Shown in pieces: positions 816-16,780 of a stretch of 18,380 nt of DNA. The DNA comes from Nitrospinota bacterium. Lineage in GTDB: Bacteria > Tectomicrobia > Entotheonellia > J063. The DNA is taken from assembly GCA_003696125.1 (NCBI GenBank), contig RFHZ01000476.1, forward strand, positions 1 through 18,380, in the 5' to 3' direction. Under the pieces are notes generated by a model. The model saw nothing but the letters and a program-made list of their open reading frames with translations. It did not search any database and was not told where the DNA came from. Numbering within the stretch: the first letter of the stretch is position 1; every line of letters starts with the position of its first letter. A program made the translations under genes and the position numbers.

Positions 816-1499
816 CTATGTCCCTGTCTCCATAACTCTGCTTCCCGCACGAGATTTCCGCGAAGAGATCAGCCGTTTCCAGTCTCTTCTTTTAGGGAAG
901 AACATGGGAACCTGTTGCCGGTACAGGAGATATTGATCTCCGAATTTTGCCACCATCTGTTGCTCTTCTCTCCTCGCCAGCCGGTAGTACGCCCAGACGA
1001 TGAGAGGAGACAAGACCAGGGTGGGGATGGTGGGCCAGTGGATCAACTGACCCGCGATGGCCAGGAAGATACCGGTGTATTGGGGATGCCGGACGATGGC
1101 ATAGACTCCTCCGGTAGCCAGTCGCCCTTCTCTGGTCGCCCGGTATACCTCTCGCCACCCCTGGACGAGGAGGGAAAGGCCCATGAACACCAGAGTATAG
1201 CCTACCAGCATCTCCAGCATGGTCCCGAAAAATCCTCTGCCTAAAAGCACCGCCCAGAGGTGACCATTCTGATGCATCCAGGGGATCTCCAGGCCCAGCC
1301 AGCCGCTGAGCAGATAGATGGTCAACGGGAACCCATACATCTCCGCGTAAAGGGCAATGATGAAGGATTGCACTAATCCTGCGCGTGCCCATTCCTTCCA
1401 GCCGCGTGGTGCCACGTACCGGTAGAGGATCCACGAAGCGATGACTACCATGAGTATGGTGAGTTCCCACATACCCCCTAAAGTCGGTACCGTTTCCAT
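816..1499 (-). CDS. Isoprenylcysteine/phospholipid-type membrane methyltransferase
   Basis: This 227-residue integral membrane protein has about five hydrophobic segments. The C-terminal signature of the ICMT/PEMT/NnrU-type methyltransferases is present: G-G-V-Y-A-I-V-R-H-P-Q-Y-T-G (130-143), then a hydrophobic hairpin, then E-E-Q-Q-M-V-A-K-F-G-D-Q-Y-L-L-Y (178-193) and a Pro-rich end. In the family these parts bind S-adenosylmethionine and methylate a lipid or prenyl-thiol substrate, but the substrate cannot be read from the sequence. The start at 1499 is supported by AGGAGG about 11 nt upstream. The in-frame Met at residue 10 has only a G-run immediately before it. No sigma-54-like promoter or enhancer array was found in front, so it is probably not part of the neighbouring regulon. 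Confidence 0.8.
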   Translation of the reverse strand: METVPTLGGMWELTILMVVIASWILYRYVAPRGWKEWARAGLVQSFIIALYAEMYGFPLTIYLLSGWLGLEIPWMHQNGHLWAVLLGRGFFGTMLEMLVGYTLVFMGLSLLVQGWREVYRATREGRLATGGVYAIVRHPQYTGIFLAIAGQLIHWPTIPTLVLSPLIVWAYYRLARREEQQMVAKFGDQYLLYRQQVPMFFPKRRDWKRLISSRKSRAGSRVMETGT

Positions 1500-2987: not shown

Positions 2988-3359
2988 TTACGCTTCCACG
3001 ATCAGCTTGCCGCGTAACATCCCCATCTGGCATTGAAAACCGTACTCGCCGGGCTGCTGCGGGGTGAGCTCCAGGGTCACCTCCTGGAAAGGAGGTAATT
3101 GGGCCGATCGGTTAAAATCATCGAAGAGCACCATCTCGCTGCAGGAGGCCTCCTCTTCCCGGGTAAAGTGGAGGCGGACCGGTTTGCCCGCCTTGACCAC
3201 GATCACGTCCGGGTCGTACCCCCCTTTGACCCGGATACGGACCTCCTGGGCTCCACCCACCTCAGATGCTGCAGTGCCTTTCTTTTCATATAGCCAGAAG
3301 TACCACACGATCCAGGCCATGAGTCCCAGACCGAACAGATTGACCAGCAATGTCGTCAT
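2988..3359 (-). CDS. Membrane-anchored cupredoxin-like copper protein
   Basis: This 123-residue protein has an N-terminal membrane segment (about 4-23) and a single cupredoxin fold facing outward. The core has D-P-D-V-I-V-V-K-A-G-K-P-V (49-61), C73 in A-S-C-S-E, and C110-Q-M112-G-M114 in the ligand loop before the last strand. This matches the Cupredoxin_1 / plastocyanin-like proteins often encoded beside CopA. Cys and Met ligands are present, but the His ligands of classical blue copper proteins are not obvious. It may therefore bind Cu+ and act as a periplasmic copper acceptor or chaperone rather than an electron carrier (inference). It lies 19 nt after copA and 20 nt before treT, clearly one operon. 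Confidence 0.8.
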   Translation of the reverse strand: MTTLLVNLFGLGLMAWIVWYFWLYEKKGTAASEVGGAQEVRIRVKGGYDPDVIVVKAGKPVRLHFTREEEASCSEMVLFDDFNRSAQLPPFQEVTLELTPQQPGEYGFQCQMGMLRGKLIVEA

Positions 3360-3378: not shown

Positions 3379-6048
3379 TTAAGTTCTCTGTGGTCGAAAC
3401 CGGCGTAGCCGATTGGCGTTCCCCACCACGGTCACGCTACTAAACGCCATGGCCGCTCCGGCGATCAGTGGACTCAAGAGCAGACCAAACATCGGATAGA
3501 GGGCTCCGGCCGCCACCGGAATGCCCAGGGTGTTATAGAGAAAGGCACCCACCAGATTCTCCTTGATGTTGCGCATGGTCGCTTTAGAGACCTCGATGGC
3601 GGTCACCACACCCCGGAGACTTCCCCCGACCAGGGTGACATCCGCCGCTTCGATGGCCACATCCGTGCCGGTGCCGATGGCGAACCCCACATCTGCCTGG
3701 GCCAGGGCCGGGGCATCGTTGATCCCATCCCCTACCATGCCGACCTTTCGTCCTTCCCGCTGCAGGTTCCGCACCTCTGCCGCCTTCTGCTCCGGTAGCA
3801 CCTCGGCCAGCACCCGGCTGATCCCGACCTGACGGGCAATGGCCTCGGCGGTGCGTCGATTATCGCCAGTGAGCATGACCACTTCCAGTCCCATAGCCTG
3901 CAAGGCCTGGATCGCAGCAACCGAGTCGTCTTTAATCGTGTCGGCCACGGCGATGAGTCCAACAGCCGCAGCCTGTTTCTCTGCTCCATCCGTTGTCGCC
4001 AGGAACATGACCGTCTTTCCCTCTCCCTCCAGCCGCTCTGCCTCGGCAAGCAGGGGAGAGATATCGGCACCCACCTGCTCCATCAGTCGCCGATTCCCCA
4101 AGGCCACGCGATGGCCATCAACGGTCGCCGCAATCCCATGGCCGGCAATGGCCTGGAACTCCTCTGGCTCCACCAACTCCGCCTCGCGGGCTTTTGCTCC
4201 TTCGACGATCGCCTCTGCCAGGGGATGTTCACTCCCCCATTCGGCCGAAGCAGCCAGCCGCAGGGCTTCAGTTTCAGAGTATCCTTCTACGGTTAACACA
4301 TCGGTGAGTTCCGGCTTGCCTTTGGTCACGGTACCGGTCTTATCCAGTACAACGGTATCCAGATCGGCAGACTGCTGCAGTGCTTCCCCGTTTCGGATCA
4401 ACACGCCATGCTCTGCCGCTTTGCCCACCCCGACCATGATGCTCATGGGAGTGGCCAGTCCTAAGGCACAGGGACAGGCGATGACCAGGGTGGTGACTGC
4501 GGCTACCAGGGCAAAGGCGAGCCGGGGGTCTGGGCCGAAATTAAACCAGGCCAGGAAAGCCAGGATGGCGATGATCATCACCGTGGGGACGAAGTACCCG
4601 CTGACCACATCGACCAGCCGGCCGATAGGCGGCTTGGTTCCTTGCGCCTGTTGTACCAGCTTCACAATGTGGGCCAGCGCCGTGTCTTTCCCCACTTTGG
4701 TTGCAGTAAACTTCAACGCTCCGGTCTTGTTGATGGTCCCACCGATCACCTCATCCCCTGGCCGTTTTTCTACCGGGATCGGCTCGCCGGTGATCATGCT
4801 TTCATCCACCGCCGAACTCCCATCGCTCACCACCCCATCCACCGGCACTTTCTCCCCGGGCCTTACCACAATCACATCCCCTACCAGCACCTCCTCCACC
4901 GGGATATCCATCTCCTGGCCATCCCGGATCACCCGGGCCGTCTTGGCCTGCAGATCCAGGAGTTTTTTGATGGCCTCACTGGTCCGGCCCTTGGCCCGCA
5001 CTTCGAGCGCCTGCCCGAGCACGACCAGGGCAATAACCACTGCCGCCACATCGAAAAAGGGTTCAGCCGTTCCGGCAGGGAAGACCTGGGGAATGGCGAT
5101 AGCGGCAACAGAGTAGAGCCAGGCAGCGCCGGTTCCCAGGGCGATCAACGTATTCATATCCGCACTGTGATGCCGGAAAGCGGCCCAGGCTCCGGTGAAG
5201 AAGCGCTGGCCTGACCAGAAGAGTACCGGGAGTGCCAGCAGGGCATCTACGGCCCAGATAATCCGCAGCGTGGTGCGGGATAAATTCCCCAGGAAGGGGA
5301 CAAATTCCGGATAGGAGGTCAGGAGTATCGGAATGGAGATGATCCCGGCAAACCAGAACTTGCGCATCAGGGTCTGGTATTCCCGTTCCCGGGCATTCAT
5401 TTCCTGGTCAGGCGCTTCTTCCTCCTCTACACGATGCACCGTCTGATAGCCGGCAGATTCGATTGCGGCTCGGATCGCCGCAAAATCGACCCGTTCTGGC
5501 ACATACCGGACCAGAGCCGTCTCGGTCCCGGGACTGACCGTGGCCTCCAGCACGCCCGGAACCCGCTGCAGCGCCTCCTCAACGAAGGTCACACAGGAGG
5601 CGCAGTGCAAATCTCGAATGCGCACCCGCATCTCCGAGGTCCCGACCTCGTACCCGGTCCGTTTGATGACGGCGATGAGGTGTTCCAGCGTCGTCTGCCC
5701 GGGGTCATACACGACATGGGCTTTAGCCAGGGCAAAGTTCACATGTGCCTGTTGCACACCGGGAACCTCGCGCAGGCTGCGCTCGATGGTCGAAACACAG
5801 GTGGCACAATCGAGTCCGGCAATAGGGAGCTCTATGTGTACCGGGCCTTCCCTCTGCTCAGGTACCCCGGTAGTAACCGAGGGGACGGCCTCCTTCTGGC
5901 CAGAAACATAGTGTTCGGGGTGTTGAATAAACTGCTCCTCGCAGTCGGTGGAACAGAAAGCGTACACCCGCCCGTTATAGGTCTGGGTCGCAACAGCACC
6001 CTCCTCCTCTATCTCCATTCCACACACGGGGTCTTTCACTTTGGTCAC
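3379..6048 (-). CDS. copA: Cu+-exporting P1B-1 ATPase with YHS and two HMA domains
   Basis: This 889-residue inner-membrane pump uses ATP to export Cu+. Domains in order: an N-terminal YHS domain (C9, C32, C36 in D-P-V-C-G-M and F-C-S-T-D-C), HMA domain 1 (C81-A-T-C84), HMA domain 2 (C149-A-S-C152), then the pump core. The core shows T-G-E-P, the membrane C525-P-C527 metal site, D569-K-T-G-T phosphorylation site, [13 protein letters not shown], and the Cu+-type YN and M-x-x-S-S membrane motifs near the end. I chose the GTG start at 6048 because AAAGGAG lies 7 nt upstream. The in-frame TTG at 6075 has no such site and lies upstream of it. It heads the copA-cupredoxin-treT operon and has a strong sigma-54-like promoter about 190 bp upstream with an enhancer-like array behind it. 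Confidence 0.95.
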
Positions 6049-6099
6049 ACGTTTTCTCCTTTCGTGAAGTGTCAATAAATCCTTTTCTTCTTTCCTTAG

Positions 6100-6611: not shown

Positions 6612-8474
6612 ATGCCGTATTATGATGTCATCGTTGTGGGTCTTGGTCCTGGAGGGGCCAGTGCTGCAGAAGCCTTAGGCCGCGCTGGATTACGTGTCCT
6701 GGCTCTGGAGAGAGCGACGCTACCGCGCTACAAACCCTGCGGAGGCTGCCTGTCCCTTAAAATTGATCGTATTCTTTCCCCTGACTTTCATCCTTTAATC
6801 GAAAAGGTGGTCTATGGAGGCAGACTGACCTTTCGTTTTGGTCAGGAGGTTGTGGCCCGCTCTCCCGAGCCGGTAGCCTACATGGTGATGCGGGATCGCT
6901 TCGATGCCTTCCTGGTAGAACGGGCAGCGAAGACAGGGGTGGAAATTCATACCGGAGAGCAGGTAACGGCCATCCAGGAATCAGCAGACGGCGTAGAGGT
7001 CCAGACAAAGCAGGGGACCTATCAGGCGGCTTTTCTGGTGGGAGCGGATGGGGTACAGAGCGTGGTAGCTCGAACCCTGGGTCTTGGTGCCAAGCGGCGT
7101 ATCGCCCTGGCTTTAGAGGGGGAGATTATCCCTTCTGCTGAAGAGGAACTCCTCTTTGACGATCTGGCCTATATCGACTTTGGTTCGGTACCCTACGGTT
7201 ATGGATGGATCTTCCCCAAGCAGAGCCACCTCTCCGTTGGTGTTGCCGGACTCAAGGGATACATCCGTCACCCCAAACCGTACTATCAAGAGCTCTTAGC
7301 TGCAGAGCACCTGCTGGAAGGAGAGATAGCACTCGAAGAACGCCATGGGTATATTATTCCTGTCTTCAGTGGTACCAGACCCCTGACCACGCGTCGCACT
7401 CTGGTGGTAGGAGATGCAGCCGGTCTGGTTGATCCCTTTCTCGGAGAGGGGATTTATTATGCGATCCGCAGTGGGCAGTTAGCGGCACAGGCGATCATCC
7501 AGGCGCTGCAAGAGCCCTCACTCTCCCTGTCCACTTATGAAGAGGCGCTGGCGGCAGAAATCTATCCAGAATTCCGGGCTGCCCGCAAAATGGCGCTTTT
7601 CATTTACCATTTTCCCCGTATCGGCTATGCGGTGCTGCAGGACTCATCCCTGATCGAGGGCTATTTTGATGTCCTGCGTGGTCGGAATACCTATCAGGAC
7701 TTTTGGGAGCGGCTCAAGCGACAGGCTGGAGTAGATCTACTCACCTGGTTGGGCCTGCTCCGGAAACACCCCAAACAGGTAGCCGCCACCTACGATCGGG
7801 TAGCCAGTCGCTACGACCAGGCTCAGCAACGCTGGAAGACACTGCTTGGCGAGGGAGCCTGGAAGCACCTGGAAGCGCTCGTTGCACGCCATGTCAGGCC
7901 TGGTGCCCGGGTGCTGGATGCAGGAACCGGTACCGGAGCGGCCATAGAAATGCTACTACAAGCGACAGACCCGGCGGAAGTCGTGGGGATCGACGTCTCA
8001 GAGAAGATGCTTGCCAGAGCGCAACAGAAGATCCAGGATCCGCGGGTACGCTTTCAGCAACAGGATATGACCTTTCTCCCTTATCCCGATCGCTCGTTTG
8101 ATATGGTGATCAGCACCTGGGCTCTGGAAACGGTATCTCATCCCAAACAGGTTGTCCAGGAATTCCTGCGGGTGATTAAAGACGATGGCTACGTGATCTA
8201 TGCCTTTTCCAGTCTTCCGCCTCGAGGAATCGGGAAGCTTTACGCCTTTCTGCTGGAGCGGCTATTGGGGAAAAAATACGCCTGGCATTTTCTATCGGCA
8301 GAAACGCGGCCCTACCATGTATGCTCCCACTCCCAGATCGCCACCTTCGGGAAGGGACCGCATACCATCGCCGTGCTCCGCAAATGTTGTACCGTCATGG
8401 AAGAGGCGGTTCCGTGTATACTGCCAGAATCCTGGCTGAGAGAGGAAAGGAGGGAAGGATGCGTCGCTGGGTAA
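6612..8474 (+). CDS. Geranylgeranyl-reductase-like flavoprotein fused to a SAM methyltransferase
   Basis: This 620-residue two-domain protein begins with an FAD-dependent geranylgeranyl reductase family domain (about 1-385): V-G-L-G-P-G-G-A-S-A-A (dinucleotide fold), Y-K-P-C-G-G-C (family Cys motif), V-G-A-D-G, Y-G-W-I-F-P-K and G267-D-A-A-G-L. Such enzymes saturate isoprenoid double bonds in chlorophyll, archaeal lipids or menaquinone tails. The second part (about 394-560) is a UbiE-like class I methyltransferase with V434-L-D-A-G-T-G-T-G, V-V-G-I-D-V-S and an acidic D-M-T-F-L-P-Y post-motif region. The fusion suggests consecutive reduction and methylation of one lipid, possibly a quinone (inference). 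AGGAGG lies 8 nt before the ATG. The 3' end overlaps the next gene by 16 nt. Confidence 0.85.
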   Translation: MPYYDVIVVGLGPGGASAAEALGRAGLRVLALERATLPRYKPCGGCLSLKIDRILSPDFHPLIEKVVYGGRLTFRFGQEVVARSPEPVAYMVMRDRFDAFLVERAAKTGVEIHTGEQVTAIQESADGVEVQTKQGTYQAAFLVGADGVQSVVARTLGLGAKRRIALALEGEIIPSAEEELLFDDLAYIDFGSVPYGYGWIFPKQSHLSVGVAGLKGYIRHPKPYYQELLAAEHLLEGEIALEERHGYIIPVFSGTRPLTTRRTLVVGDAAGLVDPFLGEGIYYAIRSGQLAAQAIIQALQEPSLSLSTYEEALAAEIYPEFRAARKMALFIYHFPRIGYAVLQDSSLIEGYFDVLRGRNTYQDFWERLKRQAGVDLLTWLGLLRKHPKQVAATYDRVASRYDQAQQRWKTLLGEGAWKHLEALVARHVRPGARVLDAGTGTGAAIEMLLQATDPAEVVGIDVSEKMLARAQQKIQDPRVRFQQQDMTFLPYPDRSFDMVISTWALETVSHPKQVVQEFLRVIKDDGYVIYAFSSLPPRGIGKLYAFLLERLLGKKYAWHFLSAETRPYHVCSHSQIATFGKGPHTIAVLRKCCTVMEEAVPCILPESWLREERREGCVAG

Positions 8475-9028
8475 AAAGTCTCCTGCTGTTATCTTTACTC
8501 CCGCTGTTAGGGTTATTAGGCTTATTTGCTGCCCGTTTAGGGAAAGACCCTAAACTCATCCCCTCTCCCCTGGTGGGGAAACCGGCACCTCCCTTTACCC
8601 TGCAGCTCTTCAATGGCGAGACCTTGCGCCTGCAAGACCTGCGTGGAAAAGTGGTCGTGCTCAACTTCTGGGCCTCCTGGTGCTATCCGTCCTGCTGGAA
8701 TGAGGCTCCCCGTCTGGAGGCAGCCTGGCAGCGATATCGCGATCAGGGAGTGGTCATCGTCGGGGTCAATTACCAGGACAAAGACGAAGACGCCCGGCAA
8801 TTCATTGCTCGTTTTGGAAAAACCTTCCCTAACGGGCCGGATCACGGGAGTAAAATTTCGATCGACTACGGGGTGTATGGCGTACCAGAGACCTTTTTTA
8901 TTGACCGTCAGGGCATCATTGCCCACAAACACATCGGCGAAATCAGCCTTGAGACCCTCACCACACAGATCGAAGCCTTGCTGGCTCCAAAGCCGGTGCA
9001 GACGAGTCAGCGAAAAGAAGGAGCGTAA
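8459..9028 (+). CDS. Membrane-anchored TlpA/CcmG-like thioredoxin with a C-x-x-x-C site
   Basis: This 189-residue protein has an N-terminal membrane anchor (about 6-23) and a periplasmic thioredoxin fold of the TlpA/ResA/AhpC-TSA group: N-F-W-A-S-W-C75-Y-P-S-C79-W-N-E-A-P, V-G-V-N-Y-Q-D, and the cis-Pro loop Y-G-V-P-E-T-F-F-I-D. Such proteins reduce or exchange disulfides, for example in apocytochrome c or copper-site assembly. The active site has three residues between the cysteines instead of the usual two. The start at 8459 (M-R-R-W-V-K) is chosen because AGGAGGG lies just upstream and the signal anchor begins there. The longer frame to 8321 is an overlap with the preceding gene. The 16-nt overlap implies translational coupling. 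Confidence 0.85.
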   Translation: MRRWVKSLLLLSLLPLLGLLGLFAARLGKDPKLIPSPLVGKPAPPFTLQLFNGETLRLQDLRGKVVVLNFWASWCYPSCWNEAPRLEAAWQRYRDQGVVIVGVNYQDKDEDARQFIARFGKTFPNGPDHGSKISIDYGVYGVPETFFIDRQGIIAHKHIGEISLETLTTQIEALLAPKPVQTSQRKEGA

Positions 9029-10822: not shown

Positions 10823-11377
10823 ATGGCCTCTCCAACGACACAAGCTCCGGCCAAACGCAGGTCACGCCAGAAAGGGAAGACTACGCTCTGGACACGGCGG
10901 GACTTCTTTAGCCTGAGCGGGTGGGCAGGGATTGCCTTTGTCCTTGCCTCTGGCCTGCTCGGTTTTCTCCGCTTCATGTTTCCCCGTGTTCTCTTCGAAC
11001 CCCCCATGATTTTTACGGCCGGCCAGCCGACAGATTATCTGGTGGGAGAAGTGAGTACAAAGTATAAAAAAGCCTATCGGGTCTGGATCATCCGGCGGGA
11101 AAGCGGGATCTTTGCCATGCTGGCCATCTGTACCCATCTCGGCTGTACCCCGAACTGGATCCCCAATAAGCAGGCCTTCAAATGCCCGTGTCATGGGAGT
11201 GGTTTTTATCTGGACGGCACCAATTTCGAAGGACCTGCTCCACGCCCTTTAGACCGGGTCAGGATTTCGCTGACCGCTGAAGGGACGCTCCTGGTGGATA
11301 AAAGCCGCGTCTACTACATGCGACCTGTGCCACCCAGCCCCGATGAGCAATATCCGGAGAGTATCCTGAAGGTATAG
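10823..11377 (+). CDS. Rieske [2Fe-2S] protein with Tat-type signal
   Basis: This 184-residue protein has an N-terminal T-R-R-D-F-F Tat-like motif (about 19-24) and a hydrophobic segment to about residue 50, probably kept as an anchor. The Rieske cluster motifs are complete: C103-T-H105-L-G-C108 and C121-P-C123-H124-G-S. By comparison with cytochrome bc proteins, C103, H105, C121 and H124 bind the cluster and C108-C123 form the disulfide. It would transfer electrons at the outer face of the membrane, as in a quinol oxidase complex. No cytochrome b gene is nearby, so it may serve a complex encoded elsewhere. GGAGGG lies just upstream. Confidence 0.9.
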   Translation: MASPTTQAPAKRRSRQKGKTTLWTRRDFFSLSGWAGIAFVLASGLLGFLRFMFPRVLFEPPMIFTAGQPTDYLVGEVSTKYKKAYRVWIIRRESGIFAMLAICTHLGCTPNWIPNKQAFKCPCHGSGFYLDGTNFEGPAPRPLDRVRISLTAEGTLLVDKSRVYYMRPVPPSPDEQYPESILKV

Positions 11378-12470: not shown

Positions 12471-12674
12471 ATGGGAACATTCTTACAGGACTATGGACTC
12501 TGGCTTTTACTTGCCGTCTTCATCGGCATGCATCTCTTTGGTCTGGGATGTGGCGGCGCTCACAGTCACGGTCACCAGCGAAAAAGAGAGCCACAGGATC
12601 ACCATCCTGAAGAGATACCACCGGTAGAGCCGGATGGGGAGAAACCACCGCGGGAGACCACACACCATCATTAA
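12471..12674 (+). CDS. Small His-rich membrane protein (DUF2933-like)
   Basis: This 67-residue protein has one membrane helix (about 8-26) followed by G-C-G-G-A-H-S-H-G-H and a tail ending H-H-H. This resembles small DUF2933-type proteins found in heavy-metal gene clusters. The Cys/His patch just outside the membrane suggests copper or other soft-metal binding. GAGGGAAGG lies before the ATG. Family assignment is moderate. Confidence 0.65.
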   Translation: MGTFLQDYGLWLLLAVFIGMHLFGLGCGGAHSHGHQRKREPQDHHPEEIPPVEPDGEKPPRETTHHH

Positions 12675-12747: not shown

Positions 12748-12984
12748 ATGCTTACGACACTTTTTTGGCTTGTAGTACTCGGTGGAGTCGGTTATTTCTT
12801 CCTGCGTCATGCAGGGGGAGGAGGATGCTGTGGAGGGGGACGCTCCTCACACTCCTGTGGACAGCGCACCCCCAAAGCGACAGAGAAACAAACCACGATT
12901 ACTTCGGATGATCAGGATGACAACACGCTCGATATGACGCTGTCCCGCGAGGGACGCTATGTGCCGAGACACAAGGAGGAGTAA
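12748..12984 (+). CDS. Small Cys/Gly-rich membrane protein
   Basis: This 78-residue protein has a membrane helix (about 4-20), then a Gly-rich patch with C-C and S-H-S-C-G, then a polar tail. AGAGGAG lies about 8 nt before the ATG. It resembles the preceding gene in plan and is likely metal-related. The precise family is not recognised. Confidence 0.6.
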   Translation: MLTTLFWLVVLGGVGYFFLRHAGGGGCCGGGRSSHSCGQRTPKATEKQTTITSDDQDDNTLDMTLSREGRYVPRHKEE

Positions 12985-14059: not shown

Positions 14060-14368
14060 ATGAAACGGCATCAGGATTGTCACGTTGATCCTCTAGAAAA
14101 ACCGGTGGATCTGGAAGCGTTGCGGCGTGCCAAAATCGTTACCCTTTTAATCAGGGGTATGGGCTGCGGTCGCTGTGCGCTGCGGGTACGGAACAGTTTA
14201 CTCCTGCTTCCAGGAGTGCTCACCGCAGATATCGATCTGTACAACGGATTAGCAGAGATCGCCTATGACCCGTCACAGGCCGATATCGATGCCCTGGTCG
14301 GTGCGGTAGCCGCAGCCGGAGGGGATGGTCGGCATTCGTATAGCGTAGAGGGAATCGTGTTTTCCTGA
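14060..14368 (+). CDS. HMA-type metal-binding protein
   Basis: This 102-residue protein has an N-terminal extension of about 25 residues. A single HMA domain follows: I-R-G-M-G-C36-G-R-C39-A-L-R-V and L-P-G-V near the middle. The C-x-x-C loop binds Cu+ or a similar soft metal in copper chaperones and mercuric proteins. No signal peptide is seen, so it is probably cytoplasmic and could hand copper to CopA (inference). GAGGAGG lies upstream of the ATG. It is the last plus-strand gene of this run and converges on the DUF1573 gene, with 57 nt between. Confidence 0.82.
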   Translation: MKRHQDCHVDPLEKPVDLEALRRAKIVTLLIRGMGCGRCALRVRNSLLLLPGVLTADIDLYNGLAEIAYDPSQADIDALVGAVAAAGGDGRHSYSVEGIVFS

Positions 14369-14425: not shown

Positions 14426-16117
14426 CTAATCCACCACCGTAGCAAAGAACTCGATAATCGTGACCGGGTGCTGGGGATCGTTGGAATCGATCCGCACCTC
14501 CCGCCAAATCCTCCCCAGTCCCTCACGGCCGTGGAAATTGGGATCAAAATAGACGGTGAGCTTTCCCTGCTGTCCCGGAGCCAGGGTCTCCTGCCAGCCG
14601 AGAGAGCTTTTGTGCATCTCAAAGAGAGCACTCTTTCGCCCCGCCACCTCAAGGGTGGCGCTGACACACATTCAAGAGACGCGAATCCTGGTGATGGTTA
14701 AGGGTTGTTCCCCACGGTTTTCCACCGTCGCCACGTAGCTCACCTTCCCTCCCAGGCGTGGGATCTCACCCAGATCATACGAGCGGGGGGTAACCACGAT
14801 CCGAGGTGGCTTGGCCTCGGAAAGAGCGTTGCTCTTCAAGAAAAAAATCCCCCCAATAAGGAGAACAAAAAGCCCGCCGATCCCGAGCATTACCAGTCGC
14901 CGAGAATACCAGGGAGTCACCGGTGTCGGCGTTGTCTTTTTCACACCTCTCTGTTTCTTCTTCTTTTTGTCCATAGCGTTTTCCTCCTCAAGGTTTTTCA
15001 TGCTCGCCACGAGTCGAAGCAGTTCCCCCTTCTTCTCTGCCCGGAGGCGCCGGTATTCCTCTGGATCGATCTTTCCGGCTTCGAAGGCATCGTCAAGACC
15101 TGCAAGATCTGCGATCAAAGCATCATACTGCGTCTGCAACTCTTCCTGGAGGGACGATAGCGACTGCTGCTGGCGATTCCTCTGGATCAGCGAATAGGCT
15201 AAGCCTATCAGAACGAAGAGCGAAACGGCTCCCAAGGCAAGATAGCGGAAGACACCTGAGCGAAACGGTAGGCCACCGATCTCTACCGTCACCAGGGTAC
15301 CTGCTTTGAGATCTTTCCCGGCCAGATGCCGGTAGCGTCTGTCCTGAAACTGGACCACCTCCTTGCTCTCCAGGCTCGGGCTCCGTGCTGCCACCTCATC
15401 GCGCACAAAGACGTTTATCGTCTCCGTCGGATAGTCCAACGATCTCACCAGGGTATATTGCCCGGCGTCGAAGGGAACGGTGTAGGCAAACCCGATCTCC
15501 CGTATCCCGGGCTTCACGTCCATCGTATCCACAAATCCCGACTCTGTGGGCACGACACAACACTCCATCAGCCCGGCCAGGTACTGGCGTTCGGCAACGC
15601 CTTGGGGCAGGGTAAATTGGAGCGTTGCCCGCCGCCCCTGATCGACCGGTCTGGTCCCGATGAAGGCTTTGTCACCCGTGTTCTCAATTGCGAGGAACTC
15701 TCTGATGAGCAGTGAGCCTTCGCCGGGAGTAACGATCAGGTGATGCACCTTGACGCGGAGCAGGGAGGGATCATCGGTGGCGTCGTAGACCGGTATCTCG
15801 ATGCGACTCTTTTCCTCTTCTGGTGGCACGGTAACCTCTGTATCATACGCCGCCCCCTGATACTGCAGGTGGATGCGGTAGCGCTCTCCCGGAGACAGAT
15901 CGGCAAAGCGAAACCCTCCCTCGGCATCGGTCGTGGTGGTCTGTTTCTCCTCCTGACCAGCTTGTGAGCGGATCAAAGTGACTTCCACCCCCCGAACCGC
16001 ACCTCCACCCGGGGTCTTGTTCTGCAGTTGCCCCTCTAAAACAGCCGCTCCCACCTCAAGCGGGAGCAGGAAAAGAAGGCCAAGCATAACGATACACAAT
16101 CCTCGCACCCTCATCAT
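14426..16117 (-). CDS. Membrane DUF1573 protein, putative selenoprotein (Sec482 at in-frame TGA)
   Basis: Read through the TGA at 14672-14674, this is 563 residues. The order is: signal peptide (1-24), carboxypeptidase-regulatory-like beta domain (25-108), a second beta-rich region, membrane span (about 291-311), coiled coil (315-378), basic linker, second membrane span (about 408-427), and DUF1573 domain (about 437-563). DUF1573 proteins have an S-C-x-C motif after I-T-R-I-x-V. Here the codons read T-I-T-R-I-R-V-S-TGA-M-C484-V-S, so the TGA replaces the first Cys. After it the frame continues to the domain end (F-D-P-N-F-H-G, S-N-D-P). Without readthrough the domain would be cut in half. The start overlaps the stop of the 39-residue gene (ATGA). 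Alternatives: a nonsense mutation, a sequencing error, or two coupled genes. Confidence 0.75.
14642..14660 (-). promoter_or_regulatory. Candidate SECIS hairpin after the in-frame TGA
   Basis: In the mRNA, 11 nt after the TGA, CGCCACC and GGTGGCG form a perfect 7-bp stem around a CTTGA loop, so the loop begins 18 nt past the TGA. Bacterial SECIS elements lie at this distance and have a G in a small apical loop. The G is at loop position 4 rather than 1-2. A lower stem GTC/GGC is possible below a small internal loop. Confidence 0.55.
14972..14989 (-). promoter_or_regulatory. Internal ribosome site and start inside the DUF1573 gene
   Basis: GGAGG lies 8 nt before the in-frame ATG at 14974 (Met382, M-D-K-K-K-K-K). 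Initiation here would give a separate 182-residue protein: basic N-terminus, one membrane span and the whole DUF1573 domain. This suggests an old gene fusion or two nested products. Confidence 0.5.
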
Positions 16118-16300: not shown

Positions 16301-16780
16301 TCACCGCATCTGATGAAAGAGTTGGGTCAGCGCTTCTTGGGCCACCCGGGGATCGACCGCCAACCAGATCACCGTGGCCTCTCGCCGGTAAAAATAGTGA
16401 ATTTGGCCTTGACCTAGTGCCGAGTAGACGGGAGTTCCTTCCCGTTGCAAAACCTTTAGATGATAAAAGGGAGTGTTTCCCTGCTTAATGCGCTCTGCCA
16501 TGTTCTCTACCTGGCGGGTAGCCTGCTCGGCAGAGGAGGCTTGGGAGACGTACAGCATGGCTACGGCTCCCTCCTTCTCATAATGAGCGATATAGCTCTC
16601 CTCTCCTGCCACCTCCTTCCCATGGAGACGATTGATCACCTGCAGAGCCTCCTCACCCTGGAGGGCATGAACCAGCCGCAAGGTCCCCAGAGCTGGCGGA
16701 GGCTCTGCCTGCCCTGCCATGGCATAGCCGACCAGAAAGACGATAAAAACGCACAATCCAACCGCACTCCTTTGTCGCAT
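16301..16780 (-). CDS. Secreted protein of unknown function
   Basis: This 159-residue protein has a signal peptide (about 1-25, M-A-G-Q-A-E at the cleavage region). The mature part, about 130 residues, alternates helices and strands with no Cys. It has L-R-L-V-H-A-L-Q-G-E-E-A near the start and I-H-Y-F-Y-R-R-E-A-T-V-I-W-L-A-V-D-P near the end. I do not recognise the family. It is 67 nt upstream of the 39-residue gene in the same direction, so it probably heads the selenoprotein operon. G-rich GGGGGAG precedes the ATG. Confidence 0.7.
   Translation of the reverse strand: MRQRSAVGLCVFIVFLVGYAMAGQAEPPPALGTLRLVHALQGEEALQVINRLHGKEVAGEESYIAHYEKEGAVAMLYVSQASSAEQATRQVENMAERIKQGNTPFYHLKVLQREGTPVYSALGQGQIHYFYRREATVIWLAVDPRVAQEALTQLFHQMR

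Follow-up and report, generated by a model that had tools for sequence, protein, structure and literature searches.

Selenoproteins of the DUF1573 family have been catalogued since 2007–2008. One of them, OS_HP2 (pfam07610, motif UxC), was described in the 2008 ocean survey (PMC2398784) and has a model of its own in NCBIfam (NF041425, OS_HP2 (seleno)protein), while a 'DUF1573 domain-containing protein, UGC' is listed in two reviews (PMC9312934, PMC13188914), a passage of the second crediting the DUF1573 selenoprotein to Zhang and Gladyshev 2007. In the same review, of 2026, one bin of Methylomirabilota is noted for its 63 predicted genes for selenoproteins (PMC13188914). The sequence-only reading of the DNA analysed here, which knew of no described DUF1573 selenoprotein, was therefore mistaken in this respect. 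Here, we analyse a window of 18,380 nucleotides (the whole of the stretch under study; contig RFHZ01000476.1 of the Nitrospinota bacterium assembly GCA_003696125.1) carrying a gene of this family. Its product scores 33.3 bits against NF041425 and does not reach the curated cut-off of 100, so genes of this kind are likely to be called as truncated proteins.

On the minus strand of the window, positions 14674-14672 read TGA, flanked by ...ITRIRVS upstream and MCVSATLEVAGRKSALFEMHK... downstream, and the same frame then continues through 81 open codons to a TAG stop. The TGA occupies the position of the first Cys in the S-C-x-C motif of the DUF1573 domain; when it is read as Cys, the Pfam model of the domain (PF07610) spans it with 46.8 bits, the gathering cut-off being 26.1. 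The sequence-only reading had placed the TGA at this Cys and the end of the domain beyond it, and both statements hold: codon, flanks and the homologues with Cys in the same column agree with the former, the TAG end and the Pfam match across the TGA with the latter. The parts of the locus are the following:

14429–14974, minus strand: DUF1573 selenoprotein module, 182 amino acids from an internal ATG (PF07610, 46.8 bits)
14672–14674, minus strand: in-frame TGA, putative selenocysteine (Sec101 of protein P0004, Sec482 of the long frame)
14429–14671, minus strand: the 81 codons 3' of the TGA that complete the domain, with U-M-C, the F-E-M-H loop and D-P-N-F-H-G
14642–14658 (approximate), minus strand: hairpin GCCACC-CUUGA-GGUGGC, candidate bacterial SECIS, near-identical in four Sec genes
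14975–14993, minus strand: GAGGAGG Shine-Dalgarno-like site before the ATG at 14974, read from the sequence
14984–16117, minus strand: N-terminal module in the same frame (PF13620, 36 bits)

We infer with great confidence that this TGA is read as selenocysteine in the cell, because the genome carries the Sec machinery, TGA recurs in three divergent relatives, other homologues have Cys at this position and the codons beyond are under purifying selection; the claim of a selenoprotein, made from the letters of the window, is upheld by these same lines of evidence. The strongest of them is the comparative one. Both TGA and Cys are found in homologues at this position, which answers the question that the earlier reading had raised. 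TGA stands at the identical codon in orthologues from three Methylomirabilota genomes (L041, L043 and L052, the last of G149), which are 34-43% identical to the window protein, and selB is above cut-off in all three genomes. Cys occupies the column in L036, L046, L047, L114 and L115, and the Cys forms span many phyla, including Patescibacteria, the genomes G111 and G343 with their relatives, plasmids and many generic DUF1573 proteins. Among the Methylomirabilota orthologues dN/dS is ~0.1-0.3 in the codons 3' of the TGA; these codons are under purifying selection, and such values would not be seen in a reading frame that is no longer used. The Sec forms cluster with a support of 0.86 in a small tree, whose resolution is low, the domain being short.

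All four components named by the sequence-only reading are present in the genome: a tRNA-Sec (74 bits), whose anticodon TCA was confirmed by ARAGORN, and selB, selA and selD (386, 560 and 136 bits, respectively), all above cut-off. The genome is a bin of 990 contigs with 8% contamination, in which the sel genes lie on contigs other than that of the window; these contigs have a GC content of 0.56-0.62, against 0.56 in the window, and a tetranucleotide correlation with it of 0.82-0.89, an agreement in composition about equal to that of other contigs in the bin. Since the selD fragment of this genome (L017, G000:C684:3-299) has one in-frame TGA, SelD is probably a selenoprotein here as well. A reassigned code was ruled out: neighbouring genes and the orthologues themselves terminate in TGA, and tRNA-Sec is present. 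A scan of the whole window by reading revealed no second convincing in-frame TGA, most cases being shadow frames, and a search for candidates in the phylum around genome G078 found none.

The perfect hairpin reported at SECIS distance is present, exists also in a 7-bp form and is conserved, but it is unremarkable against synonymous recodings and its loop is atypical. The loop lies 18 nt past the UGA. Across the four Sec genes 16 of the 17 nucleotides are identical, and the four stem codons are the same in every gene, against an expectation of about one third (a naive estimate puts the chance at ~0.01). However, a perfect hairpin with 6 or more base pairs also forms in 20-34% of random synonymous recodings, for which reason we dropped it as a stand-alone proof, and the fold energy of the window hairpin is not exceptional (p = 0.06). 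In typical bacterial SECIS elements, as captured by the bSECIS model, a G is expected within the first two loop positions, whereas the loop CUUGA has no G at either of them. The hairpin is likely to be the SECIS of the gene, as a candidate that is weak evidence by itself.

The 481-aa open reading frame upstream of the TGA is made up of two modules, and its residues 1-~380 form a gene of their own in relatives. This N-terminal module comprises a signal peptide, a carboxypeptidase-regulatory-like domain, a transmembrane helix and a SHOCT-like tail; its counterparts in L041 and L043 are stand-alone ORFs adjoining ccmF/ccmH. The DUF1573 module consists of a basic N-tail, one transmembrane helix predicted by reading and a predicted periplasmic beta-sandwich of the PapD/ASH-like type, the fold seen in the AlphaFold2 model of the ectodomain (pLDDT 92.9). 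Its best match among solved folds, and the sole sequence hit, is PDB 2qsv (TM 0.72), a Porphyromonas gingivalis protein of unknown function that lacks Sec.

Several genes around this locus encode proteins related to metals or thiols:

816–1499, minus strand: isoprenylcysteine-methyltransferase-like (ICMT) protein, 51% identical to its counterpart in the pSinB island (L114)
2988–3359, minus strand: cupredoxin-like protein (PF13473, 76.3 bits)
3379–6075, minus strand: copper-type P-type ATPase with YHS and HMA domains (by reading), given as context
8486–9028, plus strand: TlpA-like thioredoxin (PF00578, 92 bits)
10823–11377, plus strand: Rieske protein (PF00355, 34.8 bits)
14060–14368, plus strand: HMA metal-binding protein (PF00403, 46.7 bits)
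16301–16780, minus strand: conserved neighbour with no assigned function, 44-51% identical to L041/L043/L077

The ICMT, ATPase, TlpA and Rieske genes are common to the window and the pSinB island; the TlpA of the window is 39-42% identical to DsbE/TlpA of plasmid islands, and its ATPase 50% identical to that adjoining the Cys homologue in G343 (L094). The Sec DUF1573 gene has the protein of 16301-16780 as a companion in L041, L043 and L077 as well as in the window. Elsewhere in the window, positions 6612-8474 hold a single ORF in which geranylgeranyl-reductase-like and SAM methyltransferase-like domains are apparently joined (by reading), and two small His/Cys-rich ORFs with no Pfam match lie at 12471-12674 and 12748-12984 (HSHGHQ; GGGGCCGGG..HSC), the first with a relative (39%) close to the Sec gene of L077.

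Among the relatives, copper export or sensing genes are neighbours in L046, L047, G343 and pSinB, as in the window, with ccm genes instead in Methylomirabilota and in G111/G482. The Cys relatives that have the loop are found repeatedly at copper or cytochrome loci: CsoR, rhodanese-DUF1573, DUF1573 and Cu-ATPase genes lie together in the patescibacterial L046 and L047, CsoR and Cu-ATPase adjoin the Cys form in G343, and G111 and G482 have CcmF/CcmH close to theirs. The Sec gene in L041/L043 comes after a Rieske gene, with ccm rather than copper genes nearby. On plasmid pSinB and on a Jiella plasmid, the Cys form (SCMC...SPEFNMAMH) is surrounded by genes for DsbE, TlpA, SCO, DsbA and CcdA, to which the pSinB island adds a heavy-metal P-type (Cu-)ATPase, PCu(A)C and a Rieske protein; pSinB is a heavy-metal resistance plasmid with modules including copper (PMC6115938). 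A Cu-ATPase/CsoR or Ccm gene is found nearby in 8 of the 11 loop-type loci, and also in the window, versus ~3 of 19 generic DUF1573 loci, in a count whose lineages are not independent and in which three contigs are short. In the Patescibacteria the rhodanese-DUF1573 fusion (L046 2299-3144, L047 5530-6375) forms a tandem with another DUF1573 gene, and the tandem lies between CsoR and the Cu-ATPase as a compact copper island, with a CcdA-like gene in between in L047. Throughout the G111 family a membrane protein with a ACCMHHVTDILP motif, possibly a metal ligand, occurs near the DUF1573 pair (L075 9577-10131, with homologues in L089, L090, L092 and L094), and on the Jiella plasmid the region directly upstream of the DUF1573 island holds mer genes and a gene for a GDCCVxC-domain (seleno)protein (L115 1332-1556).

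How, then, may this protein work? The SelB/tRNA-Sec system of the cell itself would decode the TGA as selenocysteine, giving a membrane-anchored DUF1573 (PapD/ASH-like) domain that, by the topology we infer, faces the periplasm and has, besides a Met-His-containing loop, a Sec-x-Cys pair where one beta-strand ends. The selenolate/thiolate pair, perhaps with this loop and a conserved His, could bind copper(I) or hand it on; alternatively, it could be a redox couple for the maturation of copper sites or cytochromes, and in either case its gene would have genes for copper export and thiol redox as neighbours. We favour handling of copper(I), or thiol redox linked to it, because of the copper, thiol and cytochrome neighbours of the window and of the Cys relatives, and a periplasm-facing, membrane-anchored selenoprotein with one of these roles, in copper(I) handling or in the linked redox of copper-site or cytochrome maturation, is in our judgement the probable product. 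For a role in copper itself, to which gene context and residues point, the prospects appear even. We propose only tentatively that the Sec-x-Cys pair and the Met-His loop make a selenolate-based periplasmic copper(I) protein on a PapD-like fold, perhaps as a fusion with a Ccm-associated membrane protein. The outward-facing Sec-x-Cys redox or metal site of the sequence-only reading is plausible and strengthened by the copper-island context, its chemistry being deduced from gene context and residues.

Three other explanations bear on this proposal. TGA is normally read as stop and the genome is a fragmented bin, so the codon might be a true stop, the 481-aa protein being what is made and the remainder decay or error; with the same-position TGA in three other genomes, the purifying selection past it and a complete Sec machinery, we regard this as very improbable. 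A different matter is whether the two modules are separate proteins, their in-frame join being accidental or due to a lost stop codon, a question of gene boundaries that is compatible with the selenoprotein reading. They are separate genes ~5 kb apart in Methylomirabilota, translation of the DUF1573 module by itself could begin at the ATG at 14974, which has GAGGAGG in front of it, and the lysine-rich tail followed by a transmembrane helix resembles a native N-terminus; however, no stop codon separates the modules in the window, and the topology we propose would permit a two-helix fusion with both domains outside. We consider the two arrangements evenly balanced.

The remaining alternative accepts the selenoprotein and denies the metal: the Sec-Cys pair would be a selenenylsulfide/thiol-disulfide redox pair for the maturation of cytochrome c or Rieske proteins. 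In its favour, Methylomirabilota have Ccm genes and a Rieske gene next to the Sec gene, CcmF/CcmH lie close to the Cys form in both G111 and G482, and the Cys homologues on the plasmids have TlpA, DsbA and CcdA as neighbours. Yet a C-x-C on a PapD-like fold differs from a thioredoxin active site, and the CsoR/Cu-ATPase pairing in distant lineages suggests a metal, so that we find a metal-free pair rather unlikely. Were the copper(I) proposal true, the window would encode the selenium counterpart of DUF1573 proteins that occur in mobile copper-resistance islands. The gene context offers a lead for the role of the U-x-C motif, in copper or thiol handling, and since the protein occurs in metal islands with either Sec or Cys, the reason for using selenium can be tested directly.

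Taken together, a selenoprotein family that is known, although functionally blank, would gain a distinct membrane-anchored branch, which can be compared with the described systems as follows: (i) The DUF1573 selenoprotein with UGC (PF07610) shares the domain and has its Sec where S-C-x-C has its first Cys. The present branch, in contrast, has U-M-C or U-D-C, a loop of ~23 residues past the motif and a membrane anchor, and its lineages are Methylomirabilota and that of the window. (ii) OS_HP2 (NF041425) shares U-x-C in a DUF1573 domain, in a partial match of ~35 positions, but its alignment with the window protein reaches only to the motif and ends at the new loop. (iii) The proteins of pSinB (WP_173238111.1) and Jiella (WP_083591557.1) resemble the window protein in S-C-M-C, in a loop with S-P-E-F-N-M-x-M-H, in an N-terminal hydrophobic segment and in their copper/thiol gene neighbours; they differ in having Cys for Sec and in lacking D-P-x-x-H. 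(iv) The patescibacterial DUF1573 pairs (L046, L047) have S-C-x-C, F-G-M-H and D-P-x-x-H-G, and differ in their Cys form and in their tandem with the rhodanese-DUF1573 fusion. Neither the Met-His loop nor D-P-x-x-H is found in all relatives. What looks new is only the subfamily, with its membrane anchor, its ~23-residue F-x-M-H loop past U-x-C and its copper-island setting; it appears to be set further apart by its sub-cut-off OS_HP2 score, and in the window it is also joined, in the same frame, with a second membrane protein.
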